From Candidatus Methanoperedens sp. (lineage in GTDB: Archaea; Halobacteriota; Methanosarcinia; Methanosarcinales; Methanoperedenaceae): 64,000 nucleotides of DNA. A program made the translations under genes and the position numbers. The notes under the pieces were generated by a model. That model saw only the letters and a program-made list of their open reading frames with translations, did not search any database and had not been told where the DNA came from. This document shows, piece by piece, positions 669-18,830 of the stretch; the first letter of the stretch is position 1; the number at the start of each line of letters is the position of its first letter. The stretch is taken from contig JAPMTR010000066.1 in the NCBI GenBank assembly GCA_026552975.1, forward strand, positions 1-64,000, read 5' to 3'.

Positions 669-3600
669 TCAACTTATATTATTCCATAAAGCTATATTCT
701 TCGCATCCATCCAATACCCTCTACCTGGTTCCAGTTCACTGAAACCCTCAGATCCAGTAGCAGGCCACCAGCCCCAATCCAGGAAGTGGTCAGATTTCTC
801 AAAGAGCGCAGATGTGGTATTGTATCTGTAAATCGAGGTCAGGCTGTTAGCTGGTGTGACGTTAAGCGGATTACCTACCACAGATTCTTCACCCAGCTGC
901 GCTTCATTCATGGAATACCATCCGATCAGGTTCCAGCCTGATTTAATTGGAATATCCAGACCAGACGGCGCAGCGCCGGTGAATGTCAGGTTGCAATCCT
1001 GCTGAGCCATAATCCAGTATCCTCTACCTGGTTCTAATGCCGTGAAGCTCTCTGAACCTGTGGCTGGCCACCAGCCCCAATCTTCAAAATGGTCTGATTT
1101 TTCAAACAGCTCTGATGTAGTATTGTAGCGATAGATGGATAAAATACAGTTTGCTGGAGTGACGTATATCGGTTTTCCAACGTTTGATTCATCACCAAGT
1201 TTCCATGTTGTTAGATCAATAGGAACTGAAATAAGGTTCCATCCGGACTTGAGAGAAATTGTAGAAGACAATAATTCTGACAAAGGTGCTGTCCTTGCAG
1301 TTTTGTTCACCCATGTTTGATTTACATTCCCGGATGTATCAGCAGTATGCGTTCCGATTTCGTATTCTGTATCCGGCATTAATCCTGTGATGTTGTAGTA
1401 GTTCTGGGGCGCGGGGACGTTCGTGAGGAAGGCGCCGTTGAGGTAGAGGATGGTGTGGTTGAAGTCGGGGTCGGGGGGGTTGAGCCAAGTGAAGTTGATC
1501 CAAGTGGGGCCGGGGGTGGGGTGGAGGTTAGATATGGATGAGGGGGGCGTGCCTTCGATCAAGGTAAAGTAAGCCATTGCATATCCTTGCAGATTGTCAA
1601 TATCTCCGAATGTCACCTGGAGGGAGTATGGTTCACCAATTATTAACTCAGGATAATCATTGGTGTTGAAATCAACAGAGTATTGTTCATCTATGGAGTT
1701 GATTCCTACACTGTTAGTACCTGTGCCATTGGTGAAATAAGTAATTACTTGCCCTGTGGAATTTATGATTGTAACATTAACAGTTGAGTCATAAATAAAT
1801 TCATCAGTACTGCGATTTCTGGTTGTGAATTTTATTGGGAGGATGCTGCCATCTGTGAGATTAAACGATTCCTTGGTTGAGATGGGTGGCAAGAAGGTGA
1901 TGTTGTATCCATCCTCAGTGTAAGTATCAAAAATTGGTGAAATGTACTCATCAATTATTCCATCATTGTTGTTGTCTAATGATAAAATATAGGAATTCGT
2001 TCTGCCAATGTACATTTTTCCTCTTGTTAAGGAAGTAATCGGAATATCATTGAAAGTCAAGATAATATCTTTACTGGAAAAACTTAAATCTGCATCTCCA
2101 TTACCAGTTCCGATCATTTCAATGGTATACATTAAATCTGATGGTAAATTGTAAATCTCAAACTCTTCTCCTGAATTTAGACTTGCATTTGGTATTTCAT
2201 TTGTATCACCATTAAAAGTTGTAATGACTCTACCATGTTGATCAACTATTCTTAAATCTGCAGGACAAGCCAAGGTAATAATATAAGATTTAATATCACC
2301 AAGCTTCCCTTTCAATTGATTAGAAAAGAATTTAAGCATTTGTTTAAATACATTAATTTCAAATTTTTTTTCTGGATTGAAAGATAGAAATTTATCGAAA
2401 CGAATTTTTTGTTCATTCCAATAAGGATTATCGATATATTCAATATAATTTTGAGTCACTTCAATTTCACGTGTTTGATATGGTAGACTATTATCATAAA
2501 TATATATTATATCCGAATTACTTCCTGTCGAATAGCCTATAGGTGTGACAGCATGTTGTGCATTGCCACGTAGATGCATCCATAAAGGTTTATTTTCATC
2601 TATTGAATTTTTTATTTTTTGAAATTCTTGTTGTCCATGTCCATTCCAATTACGATCAAATATTCCAAAGAATAGAATATCTACTGCTGACTTAGTGCTC
2701 AACTGTGTTGCCTGATAATAATCTATATTATATCTTGCATCATTTTTTAGGATTTCAATAGTTTTACCTTCTTCATATCCAATGGGTTTGTCTATTTCAT
2801 TTTCAAAATATAATATACTTGTAGTTGTCATTCCAAAACAATGTCCCCCAAACTGGGTTATAGAACTGACTAATACCTTAAAGGTATTATATATTGGAAG
2901 TTCGATTGGATTCAATGAACTAAACATAGAATCCCAAAACATAATTGATAAATCTTCTCCTTCTATTGGATAATTCGGAAATTGATACCCATCTATACTT
3001 GGGCTGGCAATAAATTTGAAATTATATTCATCACTTTCAAATTTATCTCCAAATTCATTGAAAGAAGATAATCTATAATAATAAGTCTGCTGATAATCAA
3101 TATTTACTATTTCTATTTCATGTTTAGTGTCGAATGATGGATTTGATTTGCCATTTTCATAAGATAATGGTGATTTACCATAATTTACCGTACTATTGCT
3201 TGATATATCAGTTTCCCACTTTATAATCACTGAATTATCGTTAGTCATATTTAATCTGGGCCCACTGATAATTTTTGGAGTTGAAGGTAACTCGATTATA
3301 AAATGTCCATCGCTTATATCATTATAATAGCTATTAGTAGTACTCATGACCGTTACTTGATATTCAGTTCCTGGAACTAAATCTAAAGGAATTTTCCAGT
3401 TATAAGTCCCAACTCCATCACTGCCTATCGAAGTACTTGATACGATATCTATAGTACTGCCTTCACTGTTGAGAAGTTCAATTTTCACATTCGATCCAAG
3501 ATCTCCTGCATAAACCCATTTTATCGGATAAGTATTGCTAATATACCATGCTTCTCCCCCATTCGGTGAAGTGACAGTTATACCAGGTTCAGGCATACCA

Positions 3601-6600
3601 CTATAAATAATTGAATATTTCCCATCAAATCCTGCATCATAGCGATCAACAATCAATATCCTCCCATTCCTCATCCAGTAATTATACGAAGGTATCTCAG
3701 TCCCATCCCTCGTCCTTATCACTTTCTCAATAGGCACAGCATTATTATACGGATCTAAAATAGAAACGATCACCCAATCCCCTGTATAATCCTCTATGCT
3801 CAAATCCAGAACAGGATTATCAGGTTCTGGCATATTGACAACTGTATAACTGGCATTAATCACGAATGTTGAGCTTCCAGTAGAAGAATTGAACAACATA
3901 TAATGAGTCTCATTATCCTGCGAATTCGCCAGGAAATCATAACCCAATTCTCCTGAACCCATCTGCTTCTGGATAATGTATGTGTTTATCTTCTTGATCA
4001 ACGAAGTTTCCATTCCTCCAAGCTCACTTGAATGTGTATATTCACCGGTGAACTTAGTGAATGTCCCATCAATGCTTGTGACCATATCCCACCAGGCGAT
4101 CTTACTATCACCAGGCTGGATATCTCCAAAGTCCACTTTCATTGAACTACTTCTCTCTTCTCCCTGCAACTGGCTTCTGATGATCTCAAAGTCAAGCAGA
4201 AGACCTGAAGGATTATAATAGATAACAGGCTGTGCTGTTTCTATGGCAAAATTCCTGGCTTCTCCATGTCCTTCATTTGTGACCTTCACCGCAAGTTTGA
4301 ACGGCTTATTTGCGATCACATCAGATGGTATGAAGTAATCGAGCACGATCTCAGGCTGAGGTTTGACAAGAATTTCAATTTCCTGTGTTGATATCTCGAA
4401 ATTTACTCCATCTACGCTGTAACTGATATTGGCAGAGATGTTATATTTCACACCTTCAGGATCCACACCGCCTGCCCCAGTTTTGGGAATTATGAGCCAC
4501 TGGGATCTTGCAAGGGCTAATGGAGATATTACTCCTGATCCATCTATGCTGCTTATGCCATTCAATCTTGGCGCCTGTATGAAGAATTTATCGTTGGCCG
4601 ATCCGCTATTATCTTTTATGTGCAGGTCAACTCTCACATTATTGATGTTCTTATCAGGCAGCCTGTTCCTAATTCCAAGACCTGCCCAGAATGCATCACG
4701 CTCCATGGTCACGTTCTGGGATATTGAAAGTTCGACCACTTCATGTATTGTTTGAGTTACTCTGGGTTTTGGCTTTGGACGGATCGGATCGCCACCGCCA
4801 GGATGCCAGTTCCATTCAGGCCAGTCCCATGGAACAAAAGTTATTCCACTGAAATGGGGTAGTGTTGGTACTATGAATATATCTGGAACACAATTCCAGC
4901 AGAATGAGTCACTGCCCCATCCACCGGAAGATCCTCCTCCGCCACTTCCTGCAACAAGATGCACTTGAGGAATATATATCGTAAAATGCGGCAAACCACC
5001 TATTGTTGGAACGGAGTAATCGAATCCTGCCATTGGAAGGATCCAGAAACAATTATAACAGGAAGAGTTTCCAAATTGGAAAAGAAGGCCGCCAAGCATT
5101 AATTCAGGTAAAGTAACACCGACACCAGTTGGCAGTCTTTTGATATCAAGACTGGAATTCTGTTCTGGAACTATTAGATTTGTATCAAAATCCCCTAACC
5201 AGATACCATTAAAATAAGGAATATTAAATTTTTTCTCTAATACTTTCCCAACTACATCAAATCCCACCGGCATTCCTGTAAGTGATTCTATTATATCACC
5301 AATTCCAAATGAGAAAGTTATCCCAATTGCCTCGCTTAATTTGATATCGCCGATCTCATTGTTATTGGTTGCATCACTAACATCAGGGAGTGTCAATTCA
5401 TTTGTTCCAACAACCTCACCCCATTCTCCTGTCAATATCCATATAGTACTTGGATCAACATCCAGGTTTTCTTTTTGAGTCCCAAATTTTAAACCATCAA
5501 AATTGATACAATAATCTGGAAAGGGAATATTTAATTCTAGCTTGCAGGTTTCATCAACAGGTGTTCTTACCATAACAGGTATGCTCGTTCCAATATAGCT
5601 GATAACCTCATGGTTATTTATGAAATGAACATATCTTCCCTGGATATTGATCTTTCCAGATAATTCCTGGCAATTTGCTGCGCCTGGATCTATCTTTATT
5701 CGATAGGGGATCTGAACATTGCTTTTTCCTCTTATTTCATCCACGGTTGTTACTAATGGATCCAAAGTGATACCATTGTAATTTATTGGAGAAATTGTAA
5801 CATTATACGCGGATACCAATCCAACATTATATAATGCAAAAGAACCCATTTTTTCTTGCCCTGCAGCCATGTTATATTGAATATAGGGAGGATTAGCAAG
5901 AAGAAGCGGTATTGGAACATCTGTTTCAAACCTCATCTTCAGGATAACATTATAATAATCCTGAATTGATGTTGGCGTAACTTCCCAGTCAAAATCAATG
6001 AAACTCATATAAAGCGCTATTTCTATCAATTTTGGAGTATCCATCGGTTCTACTTCAATAGTTCCCATTTGTGGAAGTGTGTTTGTGCCGTCAGATGACA
6101 CCTCAAAAATATATCTGCCAGTCGGCAGGTCGGCCATCAAAGCGTATCCTGTAGAATTCGTGGATGATGCGAATTCATCATAGGTATCCTGATTGATCAG
6201 GGAGATATTGGTGTTTGAAAGATTTCTTTCAAGAGCATCTGTTACATGGAATAAAAGACTTCCATTTGTAAGTTCATTTACAAATGCTGTCACATTTACC
6301 TGGACTTCGTGATGGTTATCGCTTGTGATATTTATTTGATCCCTGTAAATTCCGGTATCTACATTGTATGAATTAATATGAATATCAAATGTTGCGTTCT
6401 CACCAGGCGGCAGGTCGCCAATACTTGTATTTGATGTAATGCTCGTCCAGTTGTTGTCAGGCTGATGCAATGTGACATTTCGAAGTACGCCATAGCCCAT
6501 GTTGTATATTGCAACTGTTTCGATCTGTGTTTGATTCTTATTTAGCCCTGTTATTATTTCTGAGGGATAGACTTTTAAGATCGGGTCAGGTTTAAATAAT

Positions 6601-8546
6601 TTGACATTCAGTTCGCTTATTTCATTCGAGTTCTGGTCAGATGTTATTTCAATATTGAATTTTGCAGCATCTGGAACTGGTGTTTCAGCATTTATTTGAA
6701 TTCTTATCGTAGCGCTTTGATAGGGTTGCAGTTCTGATGGCACAGTATCTATGGTAGCTGTCACCTTATCTGAAATATCAAGATCATTAAGTGTGGATGA
6801 TATACCTGTTATTGCCGTATCACCAAGATTGTAAAGAGTAAAATTAATAGTCCGTGTAGAATCCTCAACCATTTCTATTGTTGCAGATTGAGGGATAAGA
6901 TAGAGTCCATGGATCGTGAAGTTGCGCTCAGCGAACCTTAGAAGTCCCAGATTTGATGCTTCCGCTCTGATAGAATAATTTCCGGCTTCGGTATCAAATG
7001 GATTGAAGGAATAATTGAAATGTCCCGTTTCATTCGTGGTTACTGAATATGATCTCTTAAATCCATGAAGATCTATTTTCAAATTGACACTGATATTTTC
7101 TAAAGGACTGTTATTCAGGTATTTCACAATTCCAGAAATGTTAACGGCTTCGTCTCGATCGTAAAACGCTTTTTCAGTTTCCAATTCAATGACAAAATCG
7201 TCAGTAACTCCAATTAATAGTTCGGCAGTCTCAGAATTTCCTGATGTATCATTCCCTTTGAACACTATATTAAATAAACCTGGACCAATTGATCCAGTGT
7301 CTATGCTTCCATAAAAGATATTTGAAGTATCATTGAACTCCATTTCAATGGATCCAATTACAGGAGTTGAAGTATTGAATAGATAAACTGAAAAATTAAG
7401 ACTCAAGTTCTGATCAGTAAGGATCTGTGGAGAACTTCCCGGTTTTGCAACTCTAGCAGTAAAATTAGCGATATCGCCGATAAGATATGAATGTGAACGC
7501 GAATAAGGTTGAATTATATAAGCGCCTGTAAACAACAACCTTACCGAAGCCTTTCCTGAAGCAGTAGAATTATATGCTGTGATATTTGCCGCCCATATTC
7601 CAGAAGGATCATCCTCGCTTACCAGATATTCTCCGGAAAAATTCCCAGCATCTTCTGAAAGTAAGACCTGTCTTGAGGCGCCGTTCGGACCTGAGAGATC
7701 GGCAATTGATAAGATATCAGAGGTCACAGGATTACCTGCAAGATCTGTAACATTGATCTGGATTGTCAATTTCTCCCCGGCAGGAATTATCGAATAATTT
7801 TGAGGTTTAAGGATATTGATCTTCAAACCATCGGGTGAATATCCATAAGTTACAGCCGTATTGTTCACCCAGGTCTGATTTATATTACCTTTTATATCAG
7901 CGGTATGTGTGCTGATGGTGTGAATGGTTGCAGGCAGCAAACCAGTTGCGTTAAAATGATTTTCAGGAGAATCTGCAACAAATGTAGCATCAAAATAGAT
8001 TTTTGTATGATTGAAATCCGCGTCTATAGGATTTGTCCATGTCCAGTTTATCCATGTATCCCCCACAGTTGACCGTAAATCTGTAATTGAAGAAGGAGGT
8101 GCATCAGGCGACAAAAGAACTTCAACGCTTCCATTTTTTATTGTCGGAGTAATAAGCTGTCCCGACTCATTATTCAGGATCGCATAGGTAAGATTCACAC
8201 CTGTAAAACCTGTTATGGATCCATTGAAGACAATATTTGCCAGCACTGATTCATTCTTATTAACATTATAAACCCGCGCAACAACAAATTTGACCCATCC
8301 ATGAGTATTATTTATATTAGCCACAGGATCACCGAAATCTCCCGCGACTATATTTTTTACAGAAACGATGGACGGATCAAATGAGATATTGACCACTCCC
8401 CCGGCTACGTTTCCTGATCCGTTGATCATCACGGGAACAGTAACTTCAGAACCCACGGCTGTATAAGAATCCCCAATGCTCACTAATTCAGCCGATGCTG
8501 ATGAAATTGTAAGTAAAATGAAAAAAAGGACAAACAGATATTTCAT
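669..8546 (-). CDS. C3: giant secreted cohesin protein with candidate cysteine-protease domain
   Basis: This 2625 aa secreted protein begins with a signal peptide (1-19, cleavage at SSASA). A cohesin-like beta-sandwich follows at about 20-146 (VPVMINGSGNVAGGVVNISF, then ...VLANIVF). Next come an FN3-like module (150-235), many Asn/Thr-rich Ig-like modules, a Gly/Trp-rich stretch near 1200, a Kre9/KNH-like module (about 1655-1750) and another FN3 module. Around 1880-2060 lies a candidate papain-like cysteine protease with C1903 in GGHCFGM, H1998 in AQHAVT and D2018 in IYDNS. The C-terminus has an FN3 module (2336-2383 encoded by strikingly C-ending codons) and two SGWNL modules ending in GRGYW. 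No C-terminal membrane anchor is visible. The start lies 1 nt after the dockerin gene's stop with GGAG upstream, so translation is probably coupled. Function is inferred: a surface scaffold that may bind the neighbouring dockerin protein. Protease activity is unproven. Confidence 0.8.
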   Translation of the reverse strand: MKYLFVLFFILLTISSASAELVSIGDSYTAVGSEVTVPVMINGSGNVAGGVVNISFDPSIVSVKNIVAGDFGDPVANINNTHGWVKFVVARVYNVNKNESVLANIVFNGSITGFTGVNLTYAILNNESGQLITPTIKNGSVEVLLSPDAPPSSITDLRSTVGDTWINWTWTNPIDADFNHTKIYFDATFVADSPENHFNATGLLPATIHTISTHTADIKGNINQTWVNNTAVTYGYSPDGLKINILKPQNYSIIPAGEKLTIQINVTDLAGNPVTSDILSIADLSGPNGASRQVLLSEDAGNFSGEYLVSEDDPSGIWAANITAYNSTASGKASVRLLFTGAYIIQPYSRSHSYLIGDIANFTARVAKPGSSPQILTDQNLSLNFSVYLFNTSTPVIGSIEMEFNDTSNIFYGSIDTGSIGPGLFNIVFKGNDTSGNSETAELLIGVTDDFVIELETEKAFYDRDEAVNISGIVKYLNNSPLENISVNLKIDLHGFKRSYSVTTNETGHFNYSFNPFDTEAGNYSIRAEASNLGLLRFAERNFTIHGLYLIPQSATIEMVEDSTRTINFTLYNLGDTAITGISSTLNDLDISDKVTATIDTVPSELQPYQSATIRIQINAETPVPDAAKFNIEITSDQNSNEISELNVKLFKPDPILKVYPSEIITGLNKNQTQIETVAIYNMGYGVLRNVTLHQPDNNWTSITSNTSIGDLPPGENATFDIHINSYNVDTGIYRDQINITSDNHHEVQVNVTAFVNELTNGSLLFHVTDALERNLSNTNISLINQDTYDEFASSTNSTGYALMADLPTGRYIFEVSSDGTNTLPQMGTIEVEPMDTPKLIEIALYMSFIDFDWEVTPTSIQDYYNVILKMRFETDVPIPLLLANPPYIQYNMAAGQEKMGSFALYNVGLVSAYNVTISPINYNGITLDPLVTTVDEIRGKSNVQIPYRIKIDPGAANCQELSGKINIQGRYVHFINNHEVISYIGTSIPVMVRTPVDETCKLELNIPFPDYCINFDGLKFGTQKENLDVDPSTIWILTGEWGEVVGTNELTLPDVSDATNNNEIGDIKLSEAIGITFSFGIGDIIESLTGMPVGFDVVGKVLEKKFNIPYFNGIWLGDFDTNLIVPEQNSSLDIKRLPTGVGVTLPELMLGGLLFQFGNSSCYNCFWILPMAGFDYSVPTIGGLPHFTIYIPQVHLVAGSGGGGSSGGWGSDSFCWNCVPDIFIVPTLPHFSGITFVPWDWPEWNWHPGGGDPIRPKPKPRVTQTIHEVVELSISQNVTMERDAFWAGLGIRNRLPDKNINNVRVDLHIKDNSGSANDKFFIQAPRLNGISSIDGSGVISPLALARSQWLIIPKTGAGGVDPEGVKYNISANISYSVDGVNFEISTQEIEILVKPQPEIVLDYFIPSDVIANKPFKLAVKVTNEGHGEARNFAIETAQPVIYYNPSGLLLDFEIIRSQLQGEERSSSMKVDFGDIQPGDSKIAWWDMVTSIDGTFTKFTGEYTHSSELGGMETSLIKKINTYIIQKQMGSGELGYDFLANSQDNETHYMLFNSSTGSSTFVINASYTVVNMPEPDNPVLDLSIEDYTGDWVIVSILDPYNNAVPIEKVIRTRDGTEIPSYNYWMRNGRILIVDRYDAGFDGKYSIIYSGMPEPGITVTSPNGGEAWYISNTYPIKWVYAGDLGSNVKIELLNSEGSTIDIVSSTSIGSDGVGTYNWKIPLDLVPGTEYQVTVMSTTNSYYNDISDGHFIIELPSTPKIISGPRLNMTNDNSVIIKWETDISSNSTVNYGKSPLSYENGKSNPSFDTKHEIEIVNIDYQQTYYYRLSSFNEFGDKFESDEYNFKFIASPSIDGYQFPNYPIEGEDLSIMFWDSMFSSLNPIELPIYNTFKVLVSSITQFGGHCFGMTTTSILYFENEIDKPIGYEEGKTIEILKNDARYNIDYYQATQLSTKSAVDILFFGIFDRNWNGHGQQEFQKIKNSIDENKPLWMHLRGNAQHAVTPIGYSTGSNSDIIYIYDNSLPYQTREIEVTQNYIEYIDNPYWNEQKIRFDKFLSFNPEKKFEINVFKQMLKFFSNQLKGKLGDIKSYIITLACPADLRIVDQHGRVITTFNGDTNEIPNASLNSGEEFEIYNLPSDLMYTIEMIGTGNGDADLSFSSKDIILTFNDIPITSLTRGKMYIGRTNSYILSLDNNNDGIIDEYISPIFDTYTEDGYNITFLPPISTKESFNLTDGSILPIKFTTRNRSTDEFIYDSTVNVTIINSTGQVITYFTNGTGTNSVGINSIDEQYSVDFNTNDYPELIIGEPYSLQVTFGDIDNLQGYAMAYFTLIEGTPPSSISNLHPTPGPTWINFTWLNPPDPDFNHTILYLNGAFLTNVPAPQNYYNITGLMPDTEYEIGTHTADTSGNVNQTWVNKTARTAPLSELLSSTISLKSGWNLISVPIDLTTWKLGDESNVGKPIYVTPANCILSIYRYNTTSELFEKSDHFEDWGWWPATGSESFTALEPGRGYWIMAQQDCNLTFTGAAPSGLDIPIKSGWNLIGWYSMNEAQLGEESVVGNPLNVTPANSLTSIYRYNTTSALFEKSDHFLDWGWWPATGSEGFSELEPGRGYWMDAKNIALWNNIS
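694..1560. repeat. Long direct repeat, copy 1 (3' end of C3)
   Basis: This segment encodes the last roughly 290 residues of C3: FN3 module, linker and two SGWNL/GRGYW modules. It matches the corresponding end of C2 (about 10829-11690) at DNA level, with long near-identical runs such as the stretch at 1021-1080 against 11161-11220. The two copies lie about 10 kb apart in the same orientation, so they could recombine. Confidence 0.8.
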
Positions 8547-8547
8547 T

Positions 8548-9375
8548 TCACTCCAATCCCACGATCTTCCTCATCAGGATGGTAACATCTCCGCTATCCA
8601 GCACGCCATTCCCGTTGAAATCACCGAACAAACCGCCATAGTAATAATACACTTTGATGGATTTTTCAGCGCTGTATGTCGTATTCGTGGTAACGTTCAC
8701 CTTTATCGTATTGATACCAAAATTCAAAGGAACTGATGCATTCCAGGAAGTTGTGCCAGTTGCATGAACACCGTTCACCGTCACATCCACGATCTCGTTT
8801 GGCGAAAAGGCTGTGCCATTCACATTGACCGGTGAACTCAGGACAATATCACCATGCTGCGGGTTTGATATGTTGATATCGAGTTCTCGCTTTTCTACGT
8901 TTGTTGGATTATCCAGAGGTTGGTAGGAGATAACGTCGGCATATTTTACTATCATGACACCGGGTTCACCGACAAGATGGTTTACTTCAGTGGCATTTTC
9001 CAGAGGTTGATAGGAAATAACATCGGCGTATTTCACTACCATGACACCGGGTTCACCGACAAGGTGGTTTACTTGAGTGGCATTTTCCAGAGGTTGATAG
9101 GAAATAACATCGGCGTATTTCACTACCATGACACCGGGTTCACCTACAAGATGGTTTACTTCAGTGGCATTTTCCAGTGGCTGATAGGAGATGACATCGG
9201 CGTATTTTACTACCATGACGTCGGGTTCACCGATAAGATGGTTTACTTCAGTGGCGTTTTCCAATGTCATATTCCAAACATAACTGGCGTCAGTAACATT
9301 TATTTCAGCAGCTAAAGCTATTTGATAATATCCTGATAATAAAATAACAATGGCTATCAGAATCTTATTCTGCAT
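8548..9375 (-). CDS. B3: secreted repeat protein with C-terminal dockerin-like loop
   Basis: This 275 aa protein has a signal peptide (MQNKILIAIVILLSG..., cleavage near ALAA). Four 29-residue repeats of the type PLENATEVNHLVGEPGVMVV follow, then one Ig-like module (about 165-235, INISNPQHGDIVLSSPVNV). It ends in a calcium-loop half-dockerin, GDFNGNGVLDSGDVTILMRK. The open frame reaches upstream to 9417, but the ATG at 9375 directly opens a signal peptide and overlaps the stop of A3 by 11 nt, so I chose it. C3 begins 1 nt after its stop. Dockerins bind cohesins through Asp/Asn calcium loops, and the cohesin gene next door is the obvious partner (inference). Only one F-hand is clear, whereas classical dockerins have two. 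The repeat domain is not one I recognise. Confidence 0.8.
   Translation of the reverse strand: MQNKILIAIVILLSGYYQIALAAEINVTDASYVWNMTLENATEVNHLIGEPDVMVVKYADVISYQPLENATEVNHLVGEPGVMVVKYADVISYQPLENATQVNHLVGEPGVMVVKYADVISYQPLENATEVNHLVGEPGVMIVKYADVISYQPLDNPTNVEKRELDINISNPQHGDIVLSSPVNVNGTAFSPNEIVDVTVNGVHATGTTSWNASVPLNFGINTIKVNVTTNTTYSAEKSIKVYYYYGGLFGDFNGNGVLDSGDVTILMRKIVGLE
8917..9264 (-). repeat. Four in-frame 87-nt tandem repeats in B3
   Basis: The marker atgacaccggg (variant atgacgtcggg in the last copy) recurs at 8954, 9041, 9128 and 9215, an exact 87-nt period encoding 29 residues. The copies are nearly identical in DNA, which points to recent expansion or gene conversion. Confidence 0.9.
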
Positions 9376-10120
9376 ACTCCAACACCAGACCAATGCGACC
9401 TGTGCCGCTATATGCATCTATTTTAACTTCATGTTCAATCCCGTTTGCGAATAGTCCTAACATAGAACCATATGAAATTGTATCCTGTCCCAAATTACTG
9501 AAAGGAGTAGCACTTCCATCAAGATAAGCCCTACTATAACCATAACACGCATATCCACAACCTCCCGTGGCTGAAAAATGCGACCAATCCACAGCAAACA
9601 TCGAAAAGGTCGTAGGTATCGTCACTTTGAAAGAATTAGTCCCAGTTGTGGACTCAAATATAATCATCATCTTTGAAGCATCTGGGTATCTAAAATCATA
9701 ATATTTTAGACCAGTACTTGTTCCCCCAACTACTGTTGCTACATTACTCACTGCTTTACTCAATGTTGTCGATGTGATTGGTCCACCTGTATAATCCTGC
9801 CATGGCATTATCCAGCCAGAAGACCTTGCTTTCGGATAGTATGCAACGATCCAGCCATCTTTGCTTACATACACATGGGGATATTCTTCTTCTAAATAAC
9901 GCCACATTTCAACAGTCCCTATAATATAATCAGGTGTTTCCCTTTCGATCGATGCAAACGCAGATTTAGTTAAATTTAGATCAATACTCGCCTTCGCCTT
10001 CACATAAGCGGATATCCCCGCCTCATCTGCCGGGAAGTCAACTGCTGCACTGGCGCTTCCTGCAAGCAAGAAGATGCAAAGAAGCGCGAACGATATGATC
10101 ACGGTATTTTTTTTATTCAT
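9365..10120 (-). CDS. A3: secreted protein of unknown family, third module
   Basis: This 251 aa protein has a signal peptide cleaved near GSASA-AV. It is a paralogue of the genes at 16194-17018 and 17761-18633. Shared features are an E-x-G-(I/L)-(S/A)-AYV start of the mature chain, DYIIGTVE, PHVY-x-S-x-DGW-x-x-AYYPK followed by IMPW, and KYYDFRYPDA, ending in a hydrophobic strand (GLVLEYAE). The sequence suggests a soluble, mostly beta exported protein. I do not recognise the family and no catalytic motif is obvious. A GGAG ribosome-binding site overlaps the stop of the small S3 gene 11 nt upstream. The dockerin gene B3 starts inside its last codons. It is the most diverged of the three A paralogues. 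Confidence 0.8.
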   Translation of the reverse strand: MNKKNTVIISFALLCIFLLAGSASAAVDFPADEAGISAYVKAKASIDLNLTKSAFASIERETPDYIIGTVEMWRYLEEEYPHVYVSKDGWIVAYYPKARSSGWIMPWQDYTGGPITSTTLSKAVSNVATVVGGTSTGLKYYDFRYPDASKMMIIFESTTGTNSFKVTIPTTFSMFAVDWSHFSATGGCGYACYGYSRAYLDGSATPFSNLGQDTISYGSMLGLFANGIEHEVKIDAYSGTGRIGLVLEYAE

Positions 10121-10131
10121 GGTATTTTCTC

Positions 10132-10359
10132 CTAATCTATAAATGGTGGTTTTTCAAGCGGGATTGAAATAGGGCCTGTCCGGGTATTGTTTGTGGTATT
10201 GGAAGCTGGAACCTGGCCTGGGGTTGTATTAGTAATGCTGTCATTCAGAGAAGTTTTAGTATCATTTTTCTGGGCAGGTTGTGCTCCAGGAAAGACAGAC
10301 AGAGCAAACACAATTATTGCCAGAATGAGAATAAGAATGATTTTAAGATTTATTTTAAT
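10132..10359 (-). CDS. S3: small secreted peptide with apparent AUU start
   Basis: This 75-residue frame begins IKINLKIILILILAIIVFAL, a signal or anchor segment, continues with an Asn/Thr/Pro-rich linker and ends ISIPLEKPPFID. The same ending occurs in S1 (ISIPLKNP...) at the equivalent place upstream of A1, and a variant (VSILLEKSQFI) in S2. No ATG, GTG or TTG lies between the in-frame TAG at 10363-10365 and the hydrophobic core. An ATT codon sits 7 nt after a perfect GGAGGG, so AUU is the likely start. Its stop is followed 11 nt later by A3, whose ribosome-binding site overlaps the stop. Function is unknown. Conservation of position and C-terminus argues that it is translated. A decayed gene is the main alternative. 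Confidence 0.55.
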   Translation of the reverse strand: MKINLKIILILILAIIVFALSVFPGAQPAQKNDTKTSLNDSITNTTPGQVPASNTTNNTRTGPISIPLEKPPFID

Positions 10360-10366
10360 AAGCTAT

Positions 10367-10818: not shown

Positions 10819-13800
10819 TCAACTCCTATGCCTCCACTCGGCCCCATTTTGCGCCATCACCCAGTACCCTCTGCCCGGCTCAATTTCAGTGAAACCCTCT
10901 GAACCAGTTGCAGGCCACCAGCCCCAATCCGGGAAGTGATCGGATTTCTCAAAGAGCGCAGATGTTGTATTATATCTGTATATTGAGGTCAGGCTGTTCG
11001 CTGGTGTGACATTAAGCGGATTCCCTGCCTCCGCTTCTTCATCCAGCGGCGCCACATTCATTGAATACCAGCCGACAAGGTTCCAGCCTGTATCCAGCGG
11101 AATGTCAAGATCAGACGGCGCTGTGCCGGTGAATGTCAGGCTGCAATCCTGCTGAGCCATAATCCAGTATCCTCTACCTGGTTCTAATGCTGTGAAGCTC
11201 TCTGAACCTGTGGCTGGCCACCAGCCCCAGTCGGTGAAGTGATCGGATTTTTCGAAGAGGGCTGAGGTTGTGTTATATTGATACAGGGAGGAAATACAAT
11301 TTGTTGGTGTGACGTTTATCGGTTTTCCAACGTCTGATTCATCCCCAAGTTTCCATGTTGTTAGGTCAAACGGAACCGAAATGAGGTTCCATCCGGATTT
11401 GAGGGAAATTGTTGACGACAATAATCCAGACAAAGGCGCTGTTCTTGCAGTTTTGTTGACCCATGTCTGATTGACATTCCCAGAGCTGTCCACGGTATGC
11501 GTTCCGAGTTCGTACAAAGTATCTTGTTCCAGCCCTGTGAAATTGTAGTAGTTCTGCGGCGCCGGTATGTCTGTGATATGGGTGCCGTTGAGGTAGAGGA
11601 TGGTGTGGTTGAAATCGGGGTCGGGGGGGTTGAGCCAGGTTAAGTTGAGCCAGGTGGAACCAATTATAGTTTGAGGATTGACAATGGAATAAGGAAGTGT
11701 TTTATCTATCTTAATTGTTTGATTATTTATTGATTCTACATTGCCTATGTTATCGGTTGAACGGAAATAAACAGTTGTTATCCCTTCGCTTGTTATATTG
11801 AAATGAGTTAGGTAGGTAGTCCAAGTTGCATTATCAAAACTGTATTCTGTTATATTGACGCCTGATCCGGTTTGGGTATCTGTTGCTGTAAGAGTTACAT
11901 TGACTTCAGAAATAAACCAACTATTATTACCAAGCGTTCCTGAAGGAATTAAAGTTGTAACAGGCGGCGCAGTATCAGCAATTGTAATAGTCATACTGCT
12001 CGCACCATATAGGTACATGCTGTCATTAACCATGAGAGTTATTATATGCGACCCAGCTGAGAGGTTTACAGTGCCAAATCTCTCTCCAGAACCAATGAAT
12101 CCATCAATGTCTGAATACCAGACTAATGACGTGTTTGTCAGAATACCGTCTTCGGGATCCCTGCCAGTACCATTGAATTCTATTATCTCACTTTCGTTGT
12201 ATATCGAACCAATTTCAGGAGTAATAATTGCTGCTGTTGGTGCATAGTTTGTTTCAATAGAATTCGGATATTTTGTTTCGTCTGTTATCGTATCACCATT
12301 GTAATCCAAACTCATCTTCGGATTTTCCGTGGTTATATTTACATGAAGAGTGGCAATTGTATTCTCATTAAGTGTTATATTTTGGAATGATTCAATTGTC
12401 CGTATGCCTTCTGATTGTCTATCCATAGTGAAGTTGAAGGACTCATTTTCTGGTGAGTTCTTTTGCTCCTCTGTGAGATTTGCAATTATTTCGAAACTGT
12501 ATTCTTCAGTTGCATTATATATAAATATTGTTTCTGGTTCATCTGGATCTGAAGCGTTGTATCGACCGATATAGAAAGATTCTGGAATATTTGTTTCGAT
12601 TCCACCAGATGAATTTAAACCTGTATGTCTGCCCTGCGAGTCATAAACATGAAGATTTGCCGGGCAACGCAATTCTAAAGTTAATTTTGACCTATCTGTA
12701 GATTCAAACAGAGGCATTAAATCCGTATTAGGCGCTAAAAGAGGTTCCATAGGCCTAAATTGTCGTGGATATACTTTTCCATCCCTCAGGTCTATTATTC
12801 TATAACCATACAAAGGTGGTCGATTTGAAAAACTAAGCCCATCAGACTCATCTTTATATTCATTACCCATCGCACTTCCTGTTTGGATGAATAAAGGTCT
12901 ATCCTCACTAAGTACATCGAGTTTTGTCCCATGAGAATTAAAAATATAATTCTCATGAGTATGGCCAGAAAGAACTAATTGAACATTATATTCAATAGTA
13001 TAATCGATAAATTCTTCACGATTATTAGCTATTGTTTCATCATTTCCCCCATAATTAATGTTAGGGATAAGGGCTGGTTTACATATTTCTGGAGTTAATG
13101 GATAAAGATAACACTGAATTGGCTTTTTATCATCTGAATTATCTATTGCTGGGTTATGCATAAAAATAATTTTTGGTGTTGTTTTATCAAATTCCATTAA
13201 TCCTGATAATTGGGTGTCTGTTAAACCTGTTCCTTCTGGGGAGAAATCATTCATATAATAGGTGTCCAGAGATGGATACAAATAATCATAATCTGAACCT
13301 GAATCTAAACCAATAAATTGATATCCCCTTTCTTCGAAATTATATATGTCATTAATATAATGTAAATTTTGTGATTTATCAATATTCTTACGATAGTTAA
13401 CAAGATTATCATTTCCCCCAATAGCTGGCCAAAGACGTCTGTCATGATTTCCAGGCACTATATAAGCTTTTACACTTGTGAAAATATCATTGAACTGATT
13501 AAAAAAATCTTCGTTGCTATAATCCACAAGATCACCACTAATTAATACAAAATCAGGTTTTGGTATTTCTTTATTTATTTGATCAAGCACATTAGTAATT
13601 CGACTCTTTTTTATGTTTGATAATGGAAGTGTTATATCACCTATATGCACATCAGTCATGTGTACAAAACTAAAATCTGGTTCATCATAATAAACATATA
13701 TTGTATCACGTGATCCATGAAAATTTCCGTCTGCTACACTTACATTAATTATATTCAGACCATATTGTAAACCCACATTAGTTTCCCATTTAGTTGTTTT

Positions 13801-15480
13801 ATAATCATAAGGTATTCTATAAAAAGTAGGATTTCCATTACTTGATTTTACCATGGCATCAATCCTCGTAATCAGTCCATCACTAACAGCTATTCCAGAT
13901 AATCGAATTTTTTGATCAGCAGTATGGAAATTTGTTTGAGGAATCTCGATTTTAATCGTCGGTCCCCTAGTTACATCTTTTGGATAAGTCACAAAATTGA
14001 TGCCATCTAATGTTGTGATATATCCACCCTCGCAATTAACTTGAAGATATCCGAAATTATTTACGTAATCATTCGAAACCGGGAATCCAAGCCAACCGCC
14101 GCTGCCACCTTCAGCATAATATTTATCTGCAATCTTTTTGCCTTCAGGCTGGTTCAATCCTATGACAAATATTTCATTCGTTTCTCGAATCCAGTGAATA
14201 ATCCCGCCTTCAAAGACACTATATCTTCCTGTCAATCCTGAAGGAGATTTCGCCGCTTCTCTCTCATCCGTTGTGGGCAATCCCAGGTTTGAAGCAGCAT
14301 AACCTAATTCTCTCCATTTCTGTAAGATCCCGCCGTGTACTTCAAAGACTTTCCCTGATGTAATGTTTAACTCCAGATTACCGCCTTCGAATTTCTGGTA
14401 TCTGAATGGAGTCCCATATTTTGATTTTTCAGGAGGGAGCTGATGAACATAAGGCTCAATATCGCTTGTTGGCGGTCCTAACCAAAAATTAAGGTTTGTT
14501 TTTGCATTTGCCCCGCCCATACTGTAATACCGCTCCCAGATTTCACTGTGAATATAATATGCATACTTTTGATACGTGTTGTAAATGATTATCCCGCCGC
14601 CATAGCCTGATGCTCCAGGGAAATCCTGCACAAGATAGCCCCATGCTCGGTGAACTACTGTGGCAGGACTGCCCAGGACAATTATTCCACCATTACGATT
14701 GTAAGCGGCAATGAAATGATTCTGGGTTGCTAAATCTGGGGCGTCTTGACCTACCGATATGGTAAGATCACCAGCAGTCAGCGCTGTATTATTCACCCAG
14801 GCCTGATTTATCATACCATTTATATCAGCAGTATGTGTACCGATGGTGTGAATTGTTGCAGGTTGCAGACCCGTTGCATTAAAATGATTTTCAGTGAATT
14901 CTGCAACAATTGCACCATCCAAATAGATTATTGTATGATTGAAATCAGCATCAACCGGATTTGTCCATGTCCAGTTGATCCAAGTATCCCCCACTGTTGA
15001 TCGCAAATCTGTAATTGAAGATAGAGGTGTTTCATCCAGTGATAAAACAACTTCAATGGTTCCGTTCTTAATTGTCGGAGTAAAAATCTCTCCCGACGCA
15101 TTATTCAGGATGGCATAGGTAAAATTCACACCTGTTAAACCTATTGTGGATCCATTAAATACCAAATTCGCCAGTACAGCCTGGCTTTTATTGACTTTAT
15201 CAATCCGCGCAGCTACCAGCTTTACCCAGCCATTTGTATTATTTATGTTAGCAAATGGTGAACCAAAATCACCTGCAGTCACTATTTCCAAATGAATTAT
15301 AGATGGATTAAAAGATACATTGACCACTCCCCCTGCGATCAATTCAGCATCATTTATGTTGATCGGAACAGCAAATTCTGAATCCAAAGCTATCTGATGA
15401 TCCCCAATACTTACAGTCTGTGCGCAAGCTAATGGAGTTAAAAATATGAAAAGTAAGAAAAGTGAGAAAATTGTCTTCAT
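10819..15480 (-). CDS. C2: giant secreted cohesin protein with phosphoesterase domain
   Basis: This 1553 aa secreted protein has a signal peptide (1-20), a cohesin-like domain (about 21-146) and an FN3-like module (150-232), all close in sequence to the start of C3. Next come LGFP-like repeats (about 245-470; SNLGLPTTDER, GGWLGFPVSNDY) and a beta module. A calcineurin-type metallophosphoesterase spans about 605-870, with D610 and H612 (TDVHIGD), GDLVDYS, GNHDRR, MHNP and H840/H842 (SGHTHE); the metal-ligand motifs look complete. PKD- and Ig-like modules, an FN3 module and two SGWNL/GRGYW modules close the protein. Translation starts in an ATGA overlap with the dockerin gene. The likely role is a cell-surface or secreted enzyme scaffold; the substrate is unknown. 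Confidence 0.85.
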   Translation of the reverse strand: MKTIFSLFLLFIFLTPLACAQTVSIGDHQIALDSEFAVPININDAELIAGGVVNVSFNPSIIHLEIVTAGDFGSPFANINNTNGWVKLVAARIDKVNKSQAVLANLVFNGSTIGLTGVNFTYAILNNASGEIFTPTIKNGTIEVVLSLDETPLSSITDLRSTVGDTWINWTWTNPVDADFNHTIIYLDGAIVAEFTENHFNATGLQPATIHTIGTHTADINGMINQAWVNNTALTAGDLTISVGQDAPDLATQNHFIAAYNRNGGIIVLGSPATVVHRAWGYLVQDFPGASGYGGGIIIYNTYQKYAYYIHSEIWERYYSMGGANAKTNLNFWLGPPTSDIEPYVHQLPPEKSKYGTPFRYQKFEGGNLELNITSGKVFEVHGGILQKWRELGYAASNLGLPTTDEREAAKSPSGLTGRYSVFEGGIIHWIRETNEIFVIGLNQPEGKKIADKYYAEGGSGGWLGFPVSNDYVNNFGYLQVNCEGGYITTLDGINFVTYPKDVTRGPTIKIEIPQTNFHTADQKIRLSGIAVSDGLITRIDAMVKSSNGNPTFYRIPYDYKTTKWETNVGLQYGLNIINVSVADGNFHGSRDTIYVYYDEPDFSFVHMTDVHIGDITLPLSNIKKSRITNVLDQINKEIPKPDFVLISGDLVDYSNEDFFNQFNDIFTSVKAYIVPGNHDRRLWPAIGGNDNLVNYRKNIDKSQNLHYINDIYNFEERGYQFIGLDSGSDYDYLYPSLDTYYMNDFSPEGTGLTDTQLSGLMEFDKTTPKIIFMHNPAIDNSDDKKPIQCYLYPLTPEICKPALIPNINYGGNDETIANNREEFIDYTIEYNVQLVLSGHTHENYIFNSHGTKLDVLSEDRPLFIQTGSAMGNEYKDESDGLSFSNRPPLYGYRIIDLRDGKVYPRQFRPMEPLLAPNTDLMPLFESTDRSKLTLELRCPANLHVYDSQGRHTGLNSSGGIETNIPESFYIGRYNASDPDEPETIFIYNATEEYSFEIIANLTEEQKNSPENESFNFTMDRQSEGIRTIESFQNITLNENTIATLHVNITTENPKMSLDYNGDTITDETKYPNSIETNYAPTAAIITPEIGSIYNESEIIEFNGTGRDPEDGILTNTSLVWYSDIDGFIGSGERFGTVNLSAGSHIITLMVNDSMYLYGASSMTITIADTAPPVTTLIPSGTLGNNSWFISEVNVTLTATDTQTGSGVNITEYSFDNATWTTYLTHFNITSEGITTVYFRSTDNIGNVESINNQTIKIDKTLPYSIVNPQTIIGSTWLNLTWLNPPDPDFNHTILYLNGTHITDIPAPQNYYNFTGLEQDTLYELGTHTVDSSGNVNQTWVNKTARTAPLSGLLSSTISLKSGWNLISVPFDLTTWKLGDESDVGKPINVTPTNCISSLYQYNTTSALFEKSDHFTDWGWWPATGSESFTALEPGRGYWIMAQQDCSLTFTGTAPSDLDIPLDTGWNLVGWYSMNVAPLDEEAEAGNPLNVTPANSLTSIYRYNTTSALFEKSDHFPDWGWWPATGSEGFTEIEPGRGYWVMAQNGAEWRHRS
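10829..11690. repeat. Long direct repeat, copy 2 (3' end of C2)
   Basis: This is the counterpart of 694-1560. It encodes the FN3 plus double SGWNL C-terminus of C2, with the same unusual C-ending codon patch (about 11575-11660). Upstream of this module the two proteins differ completely until their N-terminal cohesin and FN3 domains. Confidence 0.8.
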
Positions 15481-16181
15481 GTTATCATTCCTACAACCTT
15501 CTGCATAAGTATTGTTACATCGCCGCTATCCAGAATACCGTTTCCGTTCAGGTCACCCAGCATTCGTCCAATGCCAAACGGATTTACCCAGAATCCCGAC
15601 GGCGTATTATTTTCCTGGTCCAATGCATCTATTACACCATCCCCATCTGTGTCAATATAGATTGAGTTGTTAGATGGAGGTGAAAGGAAAAAAGATGCCA
15701 TCTGCGAATACCATGAAGAATCAAAATGTTCAATAAAGATCCTCGGTCGAACAGCATTTAAAGAATTATTAAGATCCGCTGCAACAACTATTAAATTTCG
15801 TCCAGGTAGGGAATCCACATCTTCAGTGAATATCCTCGGTCGAACCGTATTTAAAGAATTATTAAGGTCAGATGGAGCAACATTTAAATTTCGTCCAGGT
15901 AGGGAATCCACATCTTCAGTGAATATCCTCAGTCGAATAGTATTTAAAGAATTATTAAGGTCAGATGGAGCAACATTTAAATTTCGTCCAGGTAGAGAAT
16001 CAACATTCTCTGTGAATATCCTGGAACGAATACTATCTAGTGGGCTACTAAGCTCCACTGGTGCAGTGTTCAGGGTTAAATTTCTTACTGAAGCATTCTC
16101 CACATATATCTCTGCTGAAGCGCCTCCTATAAAAGCAGGCAGCAGTAATATGATTAATAGCACCGAATATTTGATTCCCAT
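15477..16181 (-). CDS. B2: secreted repeat protein with dockerin-like C-terminus
   Basis: This 234 aa protein has a signal peptide (MGIKYSVLLIILLLPAFIGG, cleavage at ASA-EI). Four 31-residue repeats follow (LNNSLNTVRPRIFTEDVDS-PGRNL type). The C-terminus has two calcium-type loops: DTDGDGVIDALD near 180 and the terminal LGDLNGNGILDSGDVTILMQ. The pair resembles a loosely spaced dockerin. The gene begins 12 nt after A2 with an AGGT ribosome-binding site, and its TGA overlaps the ATG of the cohesin protein C2. Asp/Asn loop positions are intact, so calcium-dependent cohesin binding is plausible (inference). It is closely related to B1 and more distantly to B3. Confidence 0.8.
   Translation of the reverse strand: MGIKYSVLLIILLLPAFIGGASAEIYVENASVRNLTLNTAPVELSSPLDSIRSRIFTENVDSLPGRNLNVAPSDLNNSLNTIRLRIFTEDVDSLPGRNLNVAPSDLNNSLNTVRPRIFTEDVDSLPGRNLIVVAADLNNSLNAVRPRIFIEHFDSSWYSQMASFFLSPPSNNSIYIDTDGDGVIDALDQENNTPSGFWVNPFGIGRMLGDLNGNGILDSGDVTILMQKVVGMIT
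15715..16065 (-). repeat. Four in-frame 93-nt tandem repeats in B2
   Basis: Equivalent positions recur at 15731, 15824, 15917 and 16010, an exact 93-nt period (31 residues). The middle copies are nearly identical in DNA and the outer ones more diverged, as expected for expansion from inside the array. Confidence 0.85.
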
Positions 16182-16193
16182 CTCAAGACCTGC

Positions 16194-17018
16194 TTACGGT
16201 TGTTTGTATATCAGGACGATTGCGATGTTTGAGGAACCTTCATCGGTAGTCCAAGCAGTGTACCCAATGTCGCCCTTATGCAATACATCTTTTGTTAGAG
16301 CGCTTATTGTTCCAAAATATCTTTCATCCACCAGGTTACCGCCATCTGATAAACTGGTATGACTAATTACACCATTTGTCCCAGAAAGGTAATTGCCATC
16401 CAAAACAAAGTAGCTTGGACCATTATAATTATAACTATCGTATGAATAATACGCCCACGAAGCATCGTACAGCAAATATTCGTTCGGCACCCTGAACCTG
16501 AAGCTATCTACTCCATTGGTAGCCCTGCTCTCAGCTATCAGTGTCAATCCATTAGCCTCTGGATACTGGAAATCATAATATTTCGTGTTTGGCTTGATGC
16601 TGGAATAAGCGACACCTACAATAGTTGATACTGCAGATAGCGCCTCTTCAAGTCGTGTATTACTCATTAAGCTCGTGTCAGGATTATTTTTGTCAAACTG
16701 CCCCCATGGCATTATCAGAGCTCTGGGCCTTTCTTTGGCATAGTATGCCATGACCCAACCATCTGAACTCGTATAAACATGCGGCTGTTCGTAATCATTT
16801 GCATTTGGAACTTCTACAATTCCAATTATATAAGTGCTTGTTCTATCCTCGATTATCTTATATGCGGTTGCTGCCTGATCGAGACTTATGTTTTTGCCCA
16901 CATTTACATAGGCAGATAATCCTACTTCATTTGTTGCAAAGGCTGCTGATGCATTTGCTGCTAAAAATGACACTACACACACAAGCGTGATTAATGCTGC
17001 GAATATTTTTGTTTTCAT
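16194..17018 (-). CDS. A2: secreted protein of unknown family, second module
   Basis: This 274 aa protein has a signal peptide cleaved near NASA-AF. It is strongly similar to A1 along its length: TSTYIIGIVEVPNANDYEQP, DGWVMAYYAKERPRALIMPW, IKPNTKYYDFQYPEA, FRFRVPNEYLLYD and a final SSNIAIVLIYK strand. Export and beta-rich character are visible; no catalytic motif or membrane anchor is. The gene is preceded by GGAG 8 nt upstream of the ATG and the truncated S2 frame, and followed 12 nt later by B2. The recurrent linkage to dockerin and cohesin genes suggests it works with them outside the cell, perhaps as the effector or ligand of the assembly (inference). Confidence 0.8.
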   Translation of the reverse strand: MKTKIFAALITLVCVVSFLAANASAAFATNEVGLSAYVNVGKNISLDQAATAYKIIEDRTSTYIIGIVEVPNANDYEQPHVYTSSDGWVMAYYAKERPRALIMPWGQFDKNNPDTSLMSNTRLEEALSAVSTIVGVAYSSIKPNTKYYDFQYPEANGLTLIAESRATNGVDSFRFRVPNEYLLYDASWAYYSYDSYNYNGPSYFVLDGNYLSGTNGVISHTSLSDGGNLVDERYFGTISALTKDVLHKGDIGYTAWTTDEGSSNIAIVLIYKQP

Positions 17019-17035
17019 ATTTGTTTCTCCTAATC

Positions 17036-17140
17036 TTAAATAAACTGTGATTTTTCAAGTAAAATCGAAACTATTTTATTGAGAGCAGAAGCGTTTTGGC
17101 TGTTGTTCGGTGCCGATACGTCGATTCCGGTAGTTCTCAT
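17036..17140 (-). CDS. S2: truncated S peptide opened by a cohesin-type ATGA start
   Basis: This 34-residue frame starts at the ATG that overlaps the B1 stop (ATGA), exactly where a cohesin gene starts after B2. It reads MRTTGIDVSAPNNSQNASA and continues to VSILLEKSQFI, matching the linker and conserved tail of S1 and S3 but lacking the hydrophobic N-terminus. I read it as a junction left when the module-1 cohesin gene and the first part of S2 were deleted. It may still be translated by coupling but has no export signal. The region also carries the A2 ribosome-binding site. Confidence 0.5.
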   Translation of the reverse strand: MRTTGIDVSAPNNSQNASALNKIVSILLEKSQFI

Positions 17141-17748
17141 GTCATCATTCCTACAATCTTCTGCATGAGTATTGTTACATCGCCGCTATCCAGAATGCCA
17201 TTTCCGTTCAGATCGCCCAGCATTCTTCCTATACCCAGCGGATTTACCCAGAATCCCGGTGTAGTGTTATTTTCCCTATCCCATTTATCGATCACACCAT
17301 CTCCATCCATGTCACCATCGATTGAGTTGTTGGGTGGAGGCAAGGGGAAATAAGGCGCCATCAGTGAGTGCAATAGCCCATCAGCATCATCAGTGAATAT
17401 CCTTGATTGAACAGTATTTATTGAACTATCAAGTCCAGATGGAACAGACATTAAATTTGGCGCAAATGCATCATCAGCATCATCAGTGAATATCCTTATT
17501 CGAACAGTATTTATGGAACTATTAAGTCCGGATGGAACAGACATTAAATTTGGTGAAAATGCATCATCAGCATCATCAGTGAATATTCTGGAACGAACAT
17601 CATGAATGGAACTATTGAGTTCCACTGATGCAATATTCAGACTGAAATTTATGACCGAAGCATTCTCAACATAAATATCTGCTGAAGCTCCGCTCATTAA
17701 AGCGGGCAAAAGAAATACGATCAACATCATAGAAATTTTGATTCCCAT
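17137..17748 (-). CDS. B1: secreted repeat protein with dockerin-like C-terminus
   Basis: This 203 aa protein has a signal peptide (MGIKISMMLIVFLLPALMSG, cleavage at ASA-DI). Three 31-residue repeats follow (LNSSINTVRIRIFTDDADDA type). Two calcium-type loops follow: DMDGDGVIDKWD and the C-terminal LGDLNGNGILDSGDVTILMQ. It is nearly superimposable on B2, with one repeat fewer. It starts 12 nt after A1, with the same AAGCAGGT leader as B2. Its stop overlaps an ATG as in B2/C2, but that ATG opens only the 34-residue S2 frame, so this dockerin has no cohesin gene of its own. It could pair with the cohesin of C2 or C3 (inference). Confidence 0.8.
   Translation of the reverse strand: MGIKISMMLIVFLLPALMSGASADIYVENASVINFSLNIASVELNSSIHDVRSRIFTDDADDAFSPNLMSVPSGLNSSINTVRIRIFTDDADDAFAPNLMSVPSGLDSSINTVQSRIFTDDADGLLHSLMAPYFPLPPPNNSIDGDMDGDGVIDKWDRENNTTPGFWVNPLGIGRMLGDLNGNGILDSGDVTILMQKIVGMMT
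17375..17640 (-). repeat. Three in-frame 93-nt tandem repeats in B1
   Basis: The marker cagtgaatat recurs at 17391, 17484 and 17577, a 93-nt period equal to that of B2 but with different unit sequence, so B1 and B2 arrays expanded after they diverged. Confidence 0.85.
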
Positions 17749-17760
17749 TGCAAAACCTGC

Positions 17761-18633
17761 TTATGGTGCTTTGTAAATCACTGCAATTGCTATGTTCGAA
17801 GAACCTGCATCGATATAAGGACCATAAGCACAACCATTAGGATTATTATAATATTGATAATACCAAAGATCCCCCTTATGAAGGACATCTTTTGTTAAAC
17901 CATTTATTGTACCATAGTACCGTTCATCAAGGCCGTTACCGCCATCAGATCTGCTGTTGTGATTAAACGATCCATTTGTTCCAATAAGTTCATTGCCATC
18001 CAGCTTGAACAAACTGTTTTGTCTGCTACAGCGACCATTTTGCTCACTACCATACGAATAATACTCCCACGAAGTATCGTATAATGTTATTTCAGTTGGT
18101 ACTCTGAACCTGAAACTTTGTACTCCATCGATAGCACTACTCCTTGCGATCATTGTCAACCTATTAGCATCTGGATACTGGAAATCATAATATTTCGTAT
18201 TTGGCTTGATGGTAGAGTATTCAATGCCATTTACCCCTGAAACCTTAGCGATTGCCTCCTCAAGTCTTGAATTACTCAATTGGCTAATATCCGGAGTATT
18301 TTTATCAAACTGCCCCCACGGCATGATCAAAGCTCTGGGCTTCTCTTTTGGGTAATAAGCCATGACCCATCCATCTGAAGTTGTGTACACATGCGGCATT
18401 TCATAATCGTTCGCATTTGGAACATCAACAATACCAATTATGTATGTGCTTGTTCTGTCCTCTATGCCCCTATATGTCCCGGCTGCCTGGTCTAAATCGA
18501 TGCTCATACCCACATTTACATAGGCTGCTATGCCTGCTTCACTGGATGCAAAGCCTTCTGCTGAAGAATTTCCTGTTAAAAATAAAACTGTACACATAAG
18601 CGATATTAACGGTATGAATATTTTTGTTTTCAT
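17761..18633 (-). CDS. A1: secreted protein of unknown family, first module
   Basis: This 290 aa protein has a signal peptide cleaved near NSSA-EG and is the longest of the three A paralogues. It shares STYIIGIVDVPNANDYEMP, DGWVMAYYPKEKPRALIMPW, IKPNTKYYDFQYPDA, FRFRVPTEITLYD and the SSNIAIAVIYK ending with A2. It has a few cysteines in insertions near the C-terminal half (QNGRCSRQ, NPNGCAYG) that could form a disulfide outside the cell. It follows S1 by 14 nt and precedes B1 by 12 nt in what looks like one operon running to the left. Family and function are not recognised. Confidence 0.8.
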   Translation of the reverse strand: MKTKIFIPLISLMCTVLFLTGNSSAEGFASSEAGIAAYVNVGMSIDLDQAAGTYRGIEDRTSTYIIGIVDVPNANDYEMPHVYTTSDGWVMAYYPKEKPRALIMPWGQFDKNTPDISQLSNSRLEEAIAKVSGVNGIEYSTIKPNTKYYDFQYPDANRLTMIARSSAIDGVQSFRFRVPTEITLYDTSWEYYSYGSEQNGRCSRQNSLFKLDGNELIGTNGSFNHNSRSDGGNGLDERYYGTINGLTKDVLHKGDLWYYQYYNNPNGCAYGPYIDAGSSNIAIAVIYKAP

Positions 18634-18647
18634 ATTTATTACTACTC

Positions 18648-18830
18648 CTATCTAATCATTAATATACGGGGATTTTTAAGTGGAATTGATATCATATTAT
18701 TATTGGTGTTAGTCATTTGATTTTGATTGGTATTCACTGCTGAAGCATCGCCATTCCTACTCTTGTTGGCGCTAAGTAATAGAACGAGAGCGAAAATTAT
18801 GATTACATTAATTAGTGATTTTTTTTCCAC
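18648..18830 (-). CDS. S1: small secreted or N-anchored peptide, GTG start
   Basis: This 60-residue peptide has an N-terminal hydrophobic segment (SLINVIIIFALVLLLSA), an Asn/Thr/Gln-rich linker and the tail ISIPLKNPRILMIR. The tail matches S3 (ISIPLEKPPFID) and S2. The start is GTG at 18830 with GGTGG a few bases upstream. It is the first gene of the three-module operon, 14 nt before A1. The function is unknown; the repeated linkage S-A suggests a role in export, anchoring or processing of A (inference). Confidence 0.6.
   Translation of the reverse strand: MEKKSLINVIIIFALVLLLSANKSRNGDASAVNTNQNQMTNTNNNMISIPLKNPRILMIR

Follow-up and report, generated by a model that had tools for sequence, protein, structure and literature searches.

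How did an open reading frame of only 34 codons come to stand between two sets of surface-protein genes? The window analysed here comprises 64,000 nucleotides of a contig of Candidatus Methanoperedens, a methane-consuming archaeon, taken from a draft genome of 121 contigs. On its minus strand, the gene order is S1-A1-B1-(34-residue frame)-A2-B2-C2, followed by S3-A3-B3-C3 (Table 1). S designates small peptides whose N-terminus is hydrophobic and is followed by a polar, N/T-rich linker and a conserved tail. The secreted A protein comprises 250–290 residues, B is a secreted protein with repeats and a dockerin-like end, and C is a very large secreted protein with a cohesin domain at its N-terminus. 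A preliminary description had interpreted the short frame, here termed mini-gene, as a deletion scar that fuses the start codon of a lost cohesin gene to the tail of an S peptide. As is detailed below, the mini-gene is very probably a junction scar that originates from a tandem rearrangement of the S-A-B(-C) surface-protein cassette.

Genes of the cassette

The C-termini of B1 and B2 were compared with the type I dockerin family PF00404, which is characterized by two calcium-binding F-hand repeats. B1 reached 18.1 bits (E 0.0032) and B2 reached 18.9 bits (E 0.0018), compared to a gathering score of 22.9, and in both proteins the region consists of one clear repeat and a DxDGDGVID loop. Due to these scores and the single clear repeat, the two ends are termed dockerin-like only. 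C3 belongs to the cohesin family PF00963 (30.6 bits; gathering score 24.1). The cohesin domain of C2 was assigned by its homology to C3 (59% over the N-terminal 150 residues), and a joint C2/C3 profile matches scaffoldin B (4ums) with an E-value of 0.0084. For the proteins of the S-A-B cassette, no Pfam or NCBIfam family was found above the cut-off, except for Glucodextran_B in B3. The AlphaFold model of A2, which was based on an alignment of 11 rows, had a mean pLDDT of 46 and was too poor for a fold comparison.

Cohesin and dockerin proteins have been reported from ANME archaea, where their role is unknown (PMC9012536; PMC5244752). In the Methanoperedens genes studied here, as among these non-cellulosomal surface proteins, a dockerin-like B is adjacent to a large surface protein that carries a cohesin. 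In contrast to the reported proteins, the S-A-B cassette consists of a small anchored peptide and a secreted A. Keyword searches of the literature yielded no description of the S-A-B cassette.

Table 1. Features of the locus in window coordinates, listed in the order of the minus strand.
Feature	Positions	Strand	Characteristics
S1, 60-residue peptide	18648–18830	minus	GTG start; hydrophobic N-terminal segment; apparent 1-nt frameshift of the tail within the conserved motif
A1, 290-residue secreted protein	17761–18633	minus	70% amino acid identity to A2
B1, secreted repeat protein	17137–17748	minus	dockerin-like C-terminus; Pfam Dockerin_1 E 0.0032, under the gathering score
Putative relic of a B-to-C junction	17137–17152	minus	AGGA (17152–17149), 8-nt spacer, ATGA shared by the B1 stop and the mini-gene start; same layout at B2/C2
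Mini-gene, 34 residues (putative fused S2 remnant)	17036–17140	minus	MRTTGIDVSAPNNSQNASALNKIVSILLEKSQFI; S linker and tail VSILLEKSQFI
Most likely breakpoint between the former cohesin-gene start and mid-S	17123–17139	minus	widest limits 17138 to 17107
TAA GAT TAG	17030–17038	minus	early stop, then putative ancestral D codon and stop position; AAA GAT TAA in G024
A2, 274-residue secreted protein	16194–17018	minus	17 nt downstream of the mini-gene stop
B2, repeat protein	15477–16181	minus	dockerin-like C-terminus; stop overlaps the C2 start (ATGA)
C2, 1553-residue surface protein	10819–15480	minus	N-terminal cohesin-like domain, LGFP repeats, metallophosphoesterase
S3, S peptide	10132–10361	minus	intact tail ISIPLEKPPFID; frame opens after TAG, with only CTT/ATT ahead of the hydrophobic segment
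A3, divergent third copy of A	9365–10120	minus	36% identity to A2; groups with A of G042 (85/96)
B3, repeat protein	8548–9375	minus	dockerin-like end; start assigned on the basis of relatives
C3, 2625-residue protein	669–8546	minus	N-terminal cohesin domain PF00963, above the gathering score

The 34-residue frame and its junction

The mini-gene is present as described and ends with VSILLEKSQFI. At the sequence level, its resemblance to the C-terminal half of the S peptides exceeds chance. An HMM of 12 S peptides, from which the mini-gene had been left out, matched it from residue 7 to the end with an i-E of 2.9e-6 and 13.9 bits; the best of 5000 shuffles reached 10.5 bits. With an HMM of the tail only, the mini-gene scored 8.6 bits and the best of 1000 shuffles 6.3 bits. 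The mini-gene aligns best with the S peptide of G024; no further member of the genus was found to possess A. The local BLOSUM62 alignment of the two, which places NNSQNASALNKIVSILLEKSQFI against NTSQNTSAATNNIISITLEKPPFIKD, has a score of 60, and 0 of 1000 shuffles exceeded 47; the corresponding DNA alignment scored 68, compared to 37 for the best codon shuffle. The alignment with S1 (DVSAPNNSQN / DASAVNTNQN) gave a score that was reached by 7 of 1000 shuffles. The mini-gene also occupies the position of an S gene, as its stop lies 17 nt upstream of A2. It possesses neither a hydrophobic N-terminus nor a lipobox; its frame begins within the S linker.

The tail of the S peptides (for example VSIPLEKPPFID) comprises 11 residues with the consensus [VI]SIPLE[KR]PPF[IL]. 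Its conservation was scored over 14 intact S tails: I3, L5, P8, P9 and F10 are invariant, and P4 (conserved in 12 of 14) and E6 seldom vary. The tail of the mini-gene fits this consensus at eight of the 11 positions. Non-matching are the three prolines, which are replaced by L at position 4, S at position 8 and Q at position 9. A serine at position 8 is found only in the mini-gene and, if it is read in the frame of the relatives, in S1. The 3' end of the mini-gene is TTT ATT TAA GAT TAG, compared to TTT ATT AAA GAT TAA in G024; due to the TAA in place of AAA, the final residues of the S tail are lost. The true tail is seen in S3 and the relatives. The likeness to the S1 tail that had also been claimed does not hold for S1 as read (LKNPRILMIR), which matches poorly because S1 appears to be frameshifted within the motif.

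On the other side of the junction, the overlap of the B1 stop with an ATG had been likened to the one between B2 and C2, and the same ATGA arrangement was indeed found at 15480–15477. Counted up to the stop codon, the ends of B1 and B2 are identical in 57 of 60, 108 of 120 and 127 of 150 nucleotides, and in both cases AGGA precedes the ATG by 8 nt. Because the two ends are near-identical through AGGA and ATGA, the ATG of the mini-gene is most likely homologous to the start codon of C2, and not a chance ATG. The similarity of the B1 side to the C2 start extends to ATGA and no more than about 10 weakly similar nucleotides beyond it, and neither a signal peptide nor a cohesin domain follows the ATG at 17140. 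Given that the B1/B2 identity ends after ATGA, that the S1-like protein sequence begins at residue 7 and that the G024-like DNA begins at 17107, the breakpoint most likely lies in the interval listed in Table 1. Note that its location within about 17 nt of the start codon is a coincidence under duplication and deletion models alike. Gene conversion was considered as a cause of the near-identical B1 and B2 ends and was rejected; the identity is distributed in patches over both A and B, with no clear tract.

Tandem duplications and deletions can leave gene remnants at their junctions, in which fragments are joined, one contributing the start region and one the tail, and such remnants erode. The mini-gene is similar in that its start region comes from one side and its tail from the other, and in that it is eroded. 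Only the neat reuse of the cohesin start codon and ribosome-binding site is unusual.

Relatives and the origin of the mini-gene

Including the genome of the window itself, 19 of the 238 genomes of the class contain a match to A. At 13 loci of relatives (G024, G042, G047, G055, G059, two in G036, G040, G116, G071, G078, G043 and G035), a full-length S with a hydrophobic N-terminus, and in several cases a lipobox, directly precedes A. A is shortened in two of these loci (G043 and G035), in G035 at a contig end. In G043 (L077:4326–4762), the full-length S is followed by a short A fragment and then by an ATPase-like gene, which represents another decayed cassette. In a more distant family (L073, L074, L075, L076), A itself begins with a lipoprotein-like or signal N-terminus, and a separate S was not seen. 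A fusion of the S tail to A in family f7, which would indicate a split-lipoprotein origin, was considered; the tail motif did not rise above shuffles and this origin is not claimed. Scanning viral contigs, genome contigs and plasmids with A gave nothing beyond the known relative G024, and no match in plasmids. Just upstream of S in G024 lies a gene (L013:11507–12829) that we take to be TnpB-like.

According to the preliminary description, a short frame shared by all relatives, with purifying selection on its own N-terminus, would speak against a scar. The short frame was found in none of the 13 relative loci, all of which carry a long S, and this objection is left without support. The sequences demonstrate that homology exists on each side of the junction, that S is full-length in relatives and that the S tail is eroded; the order of events we infer. 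A point just past the B1 stop, which includes the ribosome-binding site and ATGA of a cohesin gene, would have become connected with the middle part of an S gene. This S gene would thereby have lost its own start and membrane segment, and would now begin at the cohesin start codon. Most economically, this could be the result of a single partial tandem duplication that begins in mid-S and ends shortly after the B stop. An equivalent two-step route would be the duplication of a full module, followed by the deletion of cohesin gene 1 and the head of S2.

A partial tandem duplication alone would have converted S-A-B-C to S-A-B-[S tail]-A-B-C, such that C1 and the S2 head never existed. We lean towards this explanation, whose chance we consider to be close to even. 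It requires one step and no loss, and it fits the likely lineage-specific duplication of A and the dS values. The tree of A groups A1 with A2 (92/92) and places G024 outside this pair; AU tests on this tree do not reject the groupings A2+G024 (p 0.085) or A1+G024 (p 0.15). The dS value is about 1.0 between A1 and A2, and 1.45–1.48 to G024. Due to the sister grouping and the lower dS, it is likely that A1 and A2 were duplicated within this lineage, after the split from the nearest relative. A partial duplication yields, however, the same sequence as a deletion, and the locus itself cannot prove either; the two are not separated because none of the relatives preserves the arrangement that immediately preceded or followed the event. 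The deletion that had originally been proposed, in which two complete S-A-B-C modules lost, in one event, the S2 head together with cohesin gene 1 and the region between these genes, is possible, although we regard it as somewhat improbable. The locus does contain complete tandem modules (2 and 3), and B1 is followed by the ATGA that is also found at B2/C2. On the other hand, a deletion requires two events where one is enough. Modules 2 and 3 did not arise by a recent duplication (36% identity of A2 and A3), and no duplication of a whole module is documented. Moreover, cohesin gene 1 has left no trace, and the assembled genome contains neither a third copy of the cohesin domain nor a fourth B. 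Among the relatives, C directly follows B only in G042; the remaining inspected cassettes are limited to S-A-B, and the B-like repeats of G024 continue directly into a giant protein. As S-A-B without an adjacent C is usual in relatives, the missing C is no sign of a loss. The former existence of a module-1 cohesin gene was thus not borne out: none of the inspected relatives has an intact cohesin gene at this point or two sister S-A-B-C modules. What remains of the original proposal is the joining of a B-end/C-start to an S tail that lacks its membrane segment; the deletion of a cohesin gene from module 1 is not established.

Two further explanations do not involve a rearrangement scar. The mini-gene might be a working small gene that encodes a cytoplasmic peptide or serves as a translational coupler from B1 to A2, which would agree with the intact AGGA-ATGA start, the open frame and the short distance to A2. 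This is nevertheless unlikely: the tail is altered at three invariant or near-invariant positions, the early stop removes the last residues, an export signal is absent, and the short form occurs in no inspected relative locus. An erroneous joining of two similar modules during assembly has to be considered for a draft genome with adjacent paralogous modules, and is highly improbable. The longest exact match of the segment 16901–17300 to the rest of the window has a length of only 29 nt and lies within B1, some 30 nt upstream of the junction and not across it, and the B and S sides have no common sequence that could have caused a misjoin.

Erosion of S and possible function of the cassette

The scar, which we regard as an ordinary outcome of a tandem rearrangement, is not the only unusual copy of S at this locus. 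S1 carries CTTAAAAATC at the site of CTTGAAAAAYC in the mini-gene and S3. An alternative frame of S1 (18648–18700, minus strand) reads KSPYIND, which is similar to the tail of the family. In S3, no ATG, GTG or TTG precedes the hydrophobic segment, and CTT/ATT is located 5–8 nt after GGAGG. As S1 appears to be frameshifted and S3 lacks an ordinary start codon, selection on S seems to be relaxed across the locus; the defects of S1 and S3 may be single-base errors of the draft. Both copies of A seem to be maintained, given that the dN/dS value of A1/A2 is near 0.21.

Gaps of 12–17 nt and the two ATGA overlaps suggest one operon, and we infer that S1-A1-B1-S2'-A2-B2-C2 forms a single transcript. 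The scar is useful as a marker that links two adjacent modules to form one probable operon. If the remnant has a residual role, it would consist in passing ribosomes from B1 to A2. The dockerin-like end of B1 may bind the cohesin of C2 or C3 in trans. The scar furthermore led to the conserved S-A-B surface cassette, and the 11-residue tail of S is not described in the family libraries searched. One might speculate, with considerable doubt, that the cassette is a surface system of archaea, with S as a separate membrane anchor and its conserved tail as the docking site of A, and with B tying A via its dockerin to a cohesin scaffold. S1 with an anchor and a shifted tail, S2 with a tail and no anchor, and S3 without a standard start would then indicate that anchoring is passing from S to the dockerin-cohesin link.

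The cohesin-coding N-termini of C2 and C3 (15031–15480 and 8097–8546) are 58–59% identical with a dS of about 0.98, and are thus far closer to each other than A2 and A3 are. This suggests an exchange between modules 2 and 3 at the cohesin N-terminus.
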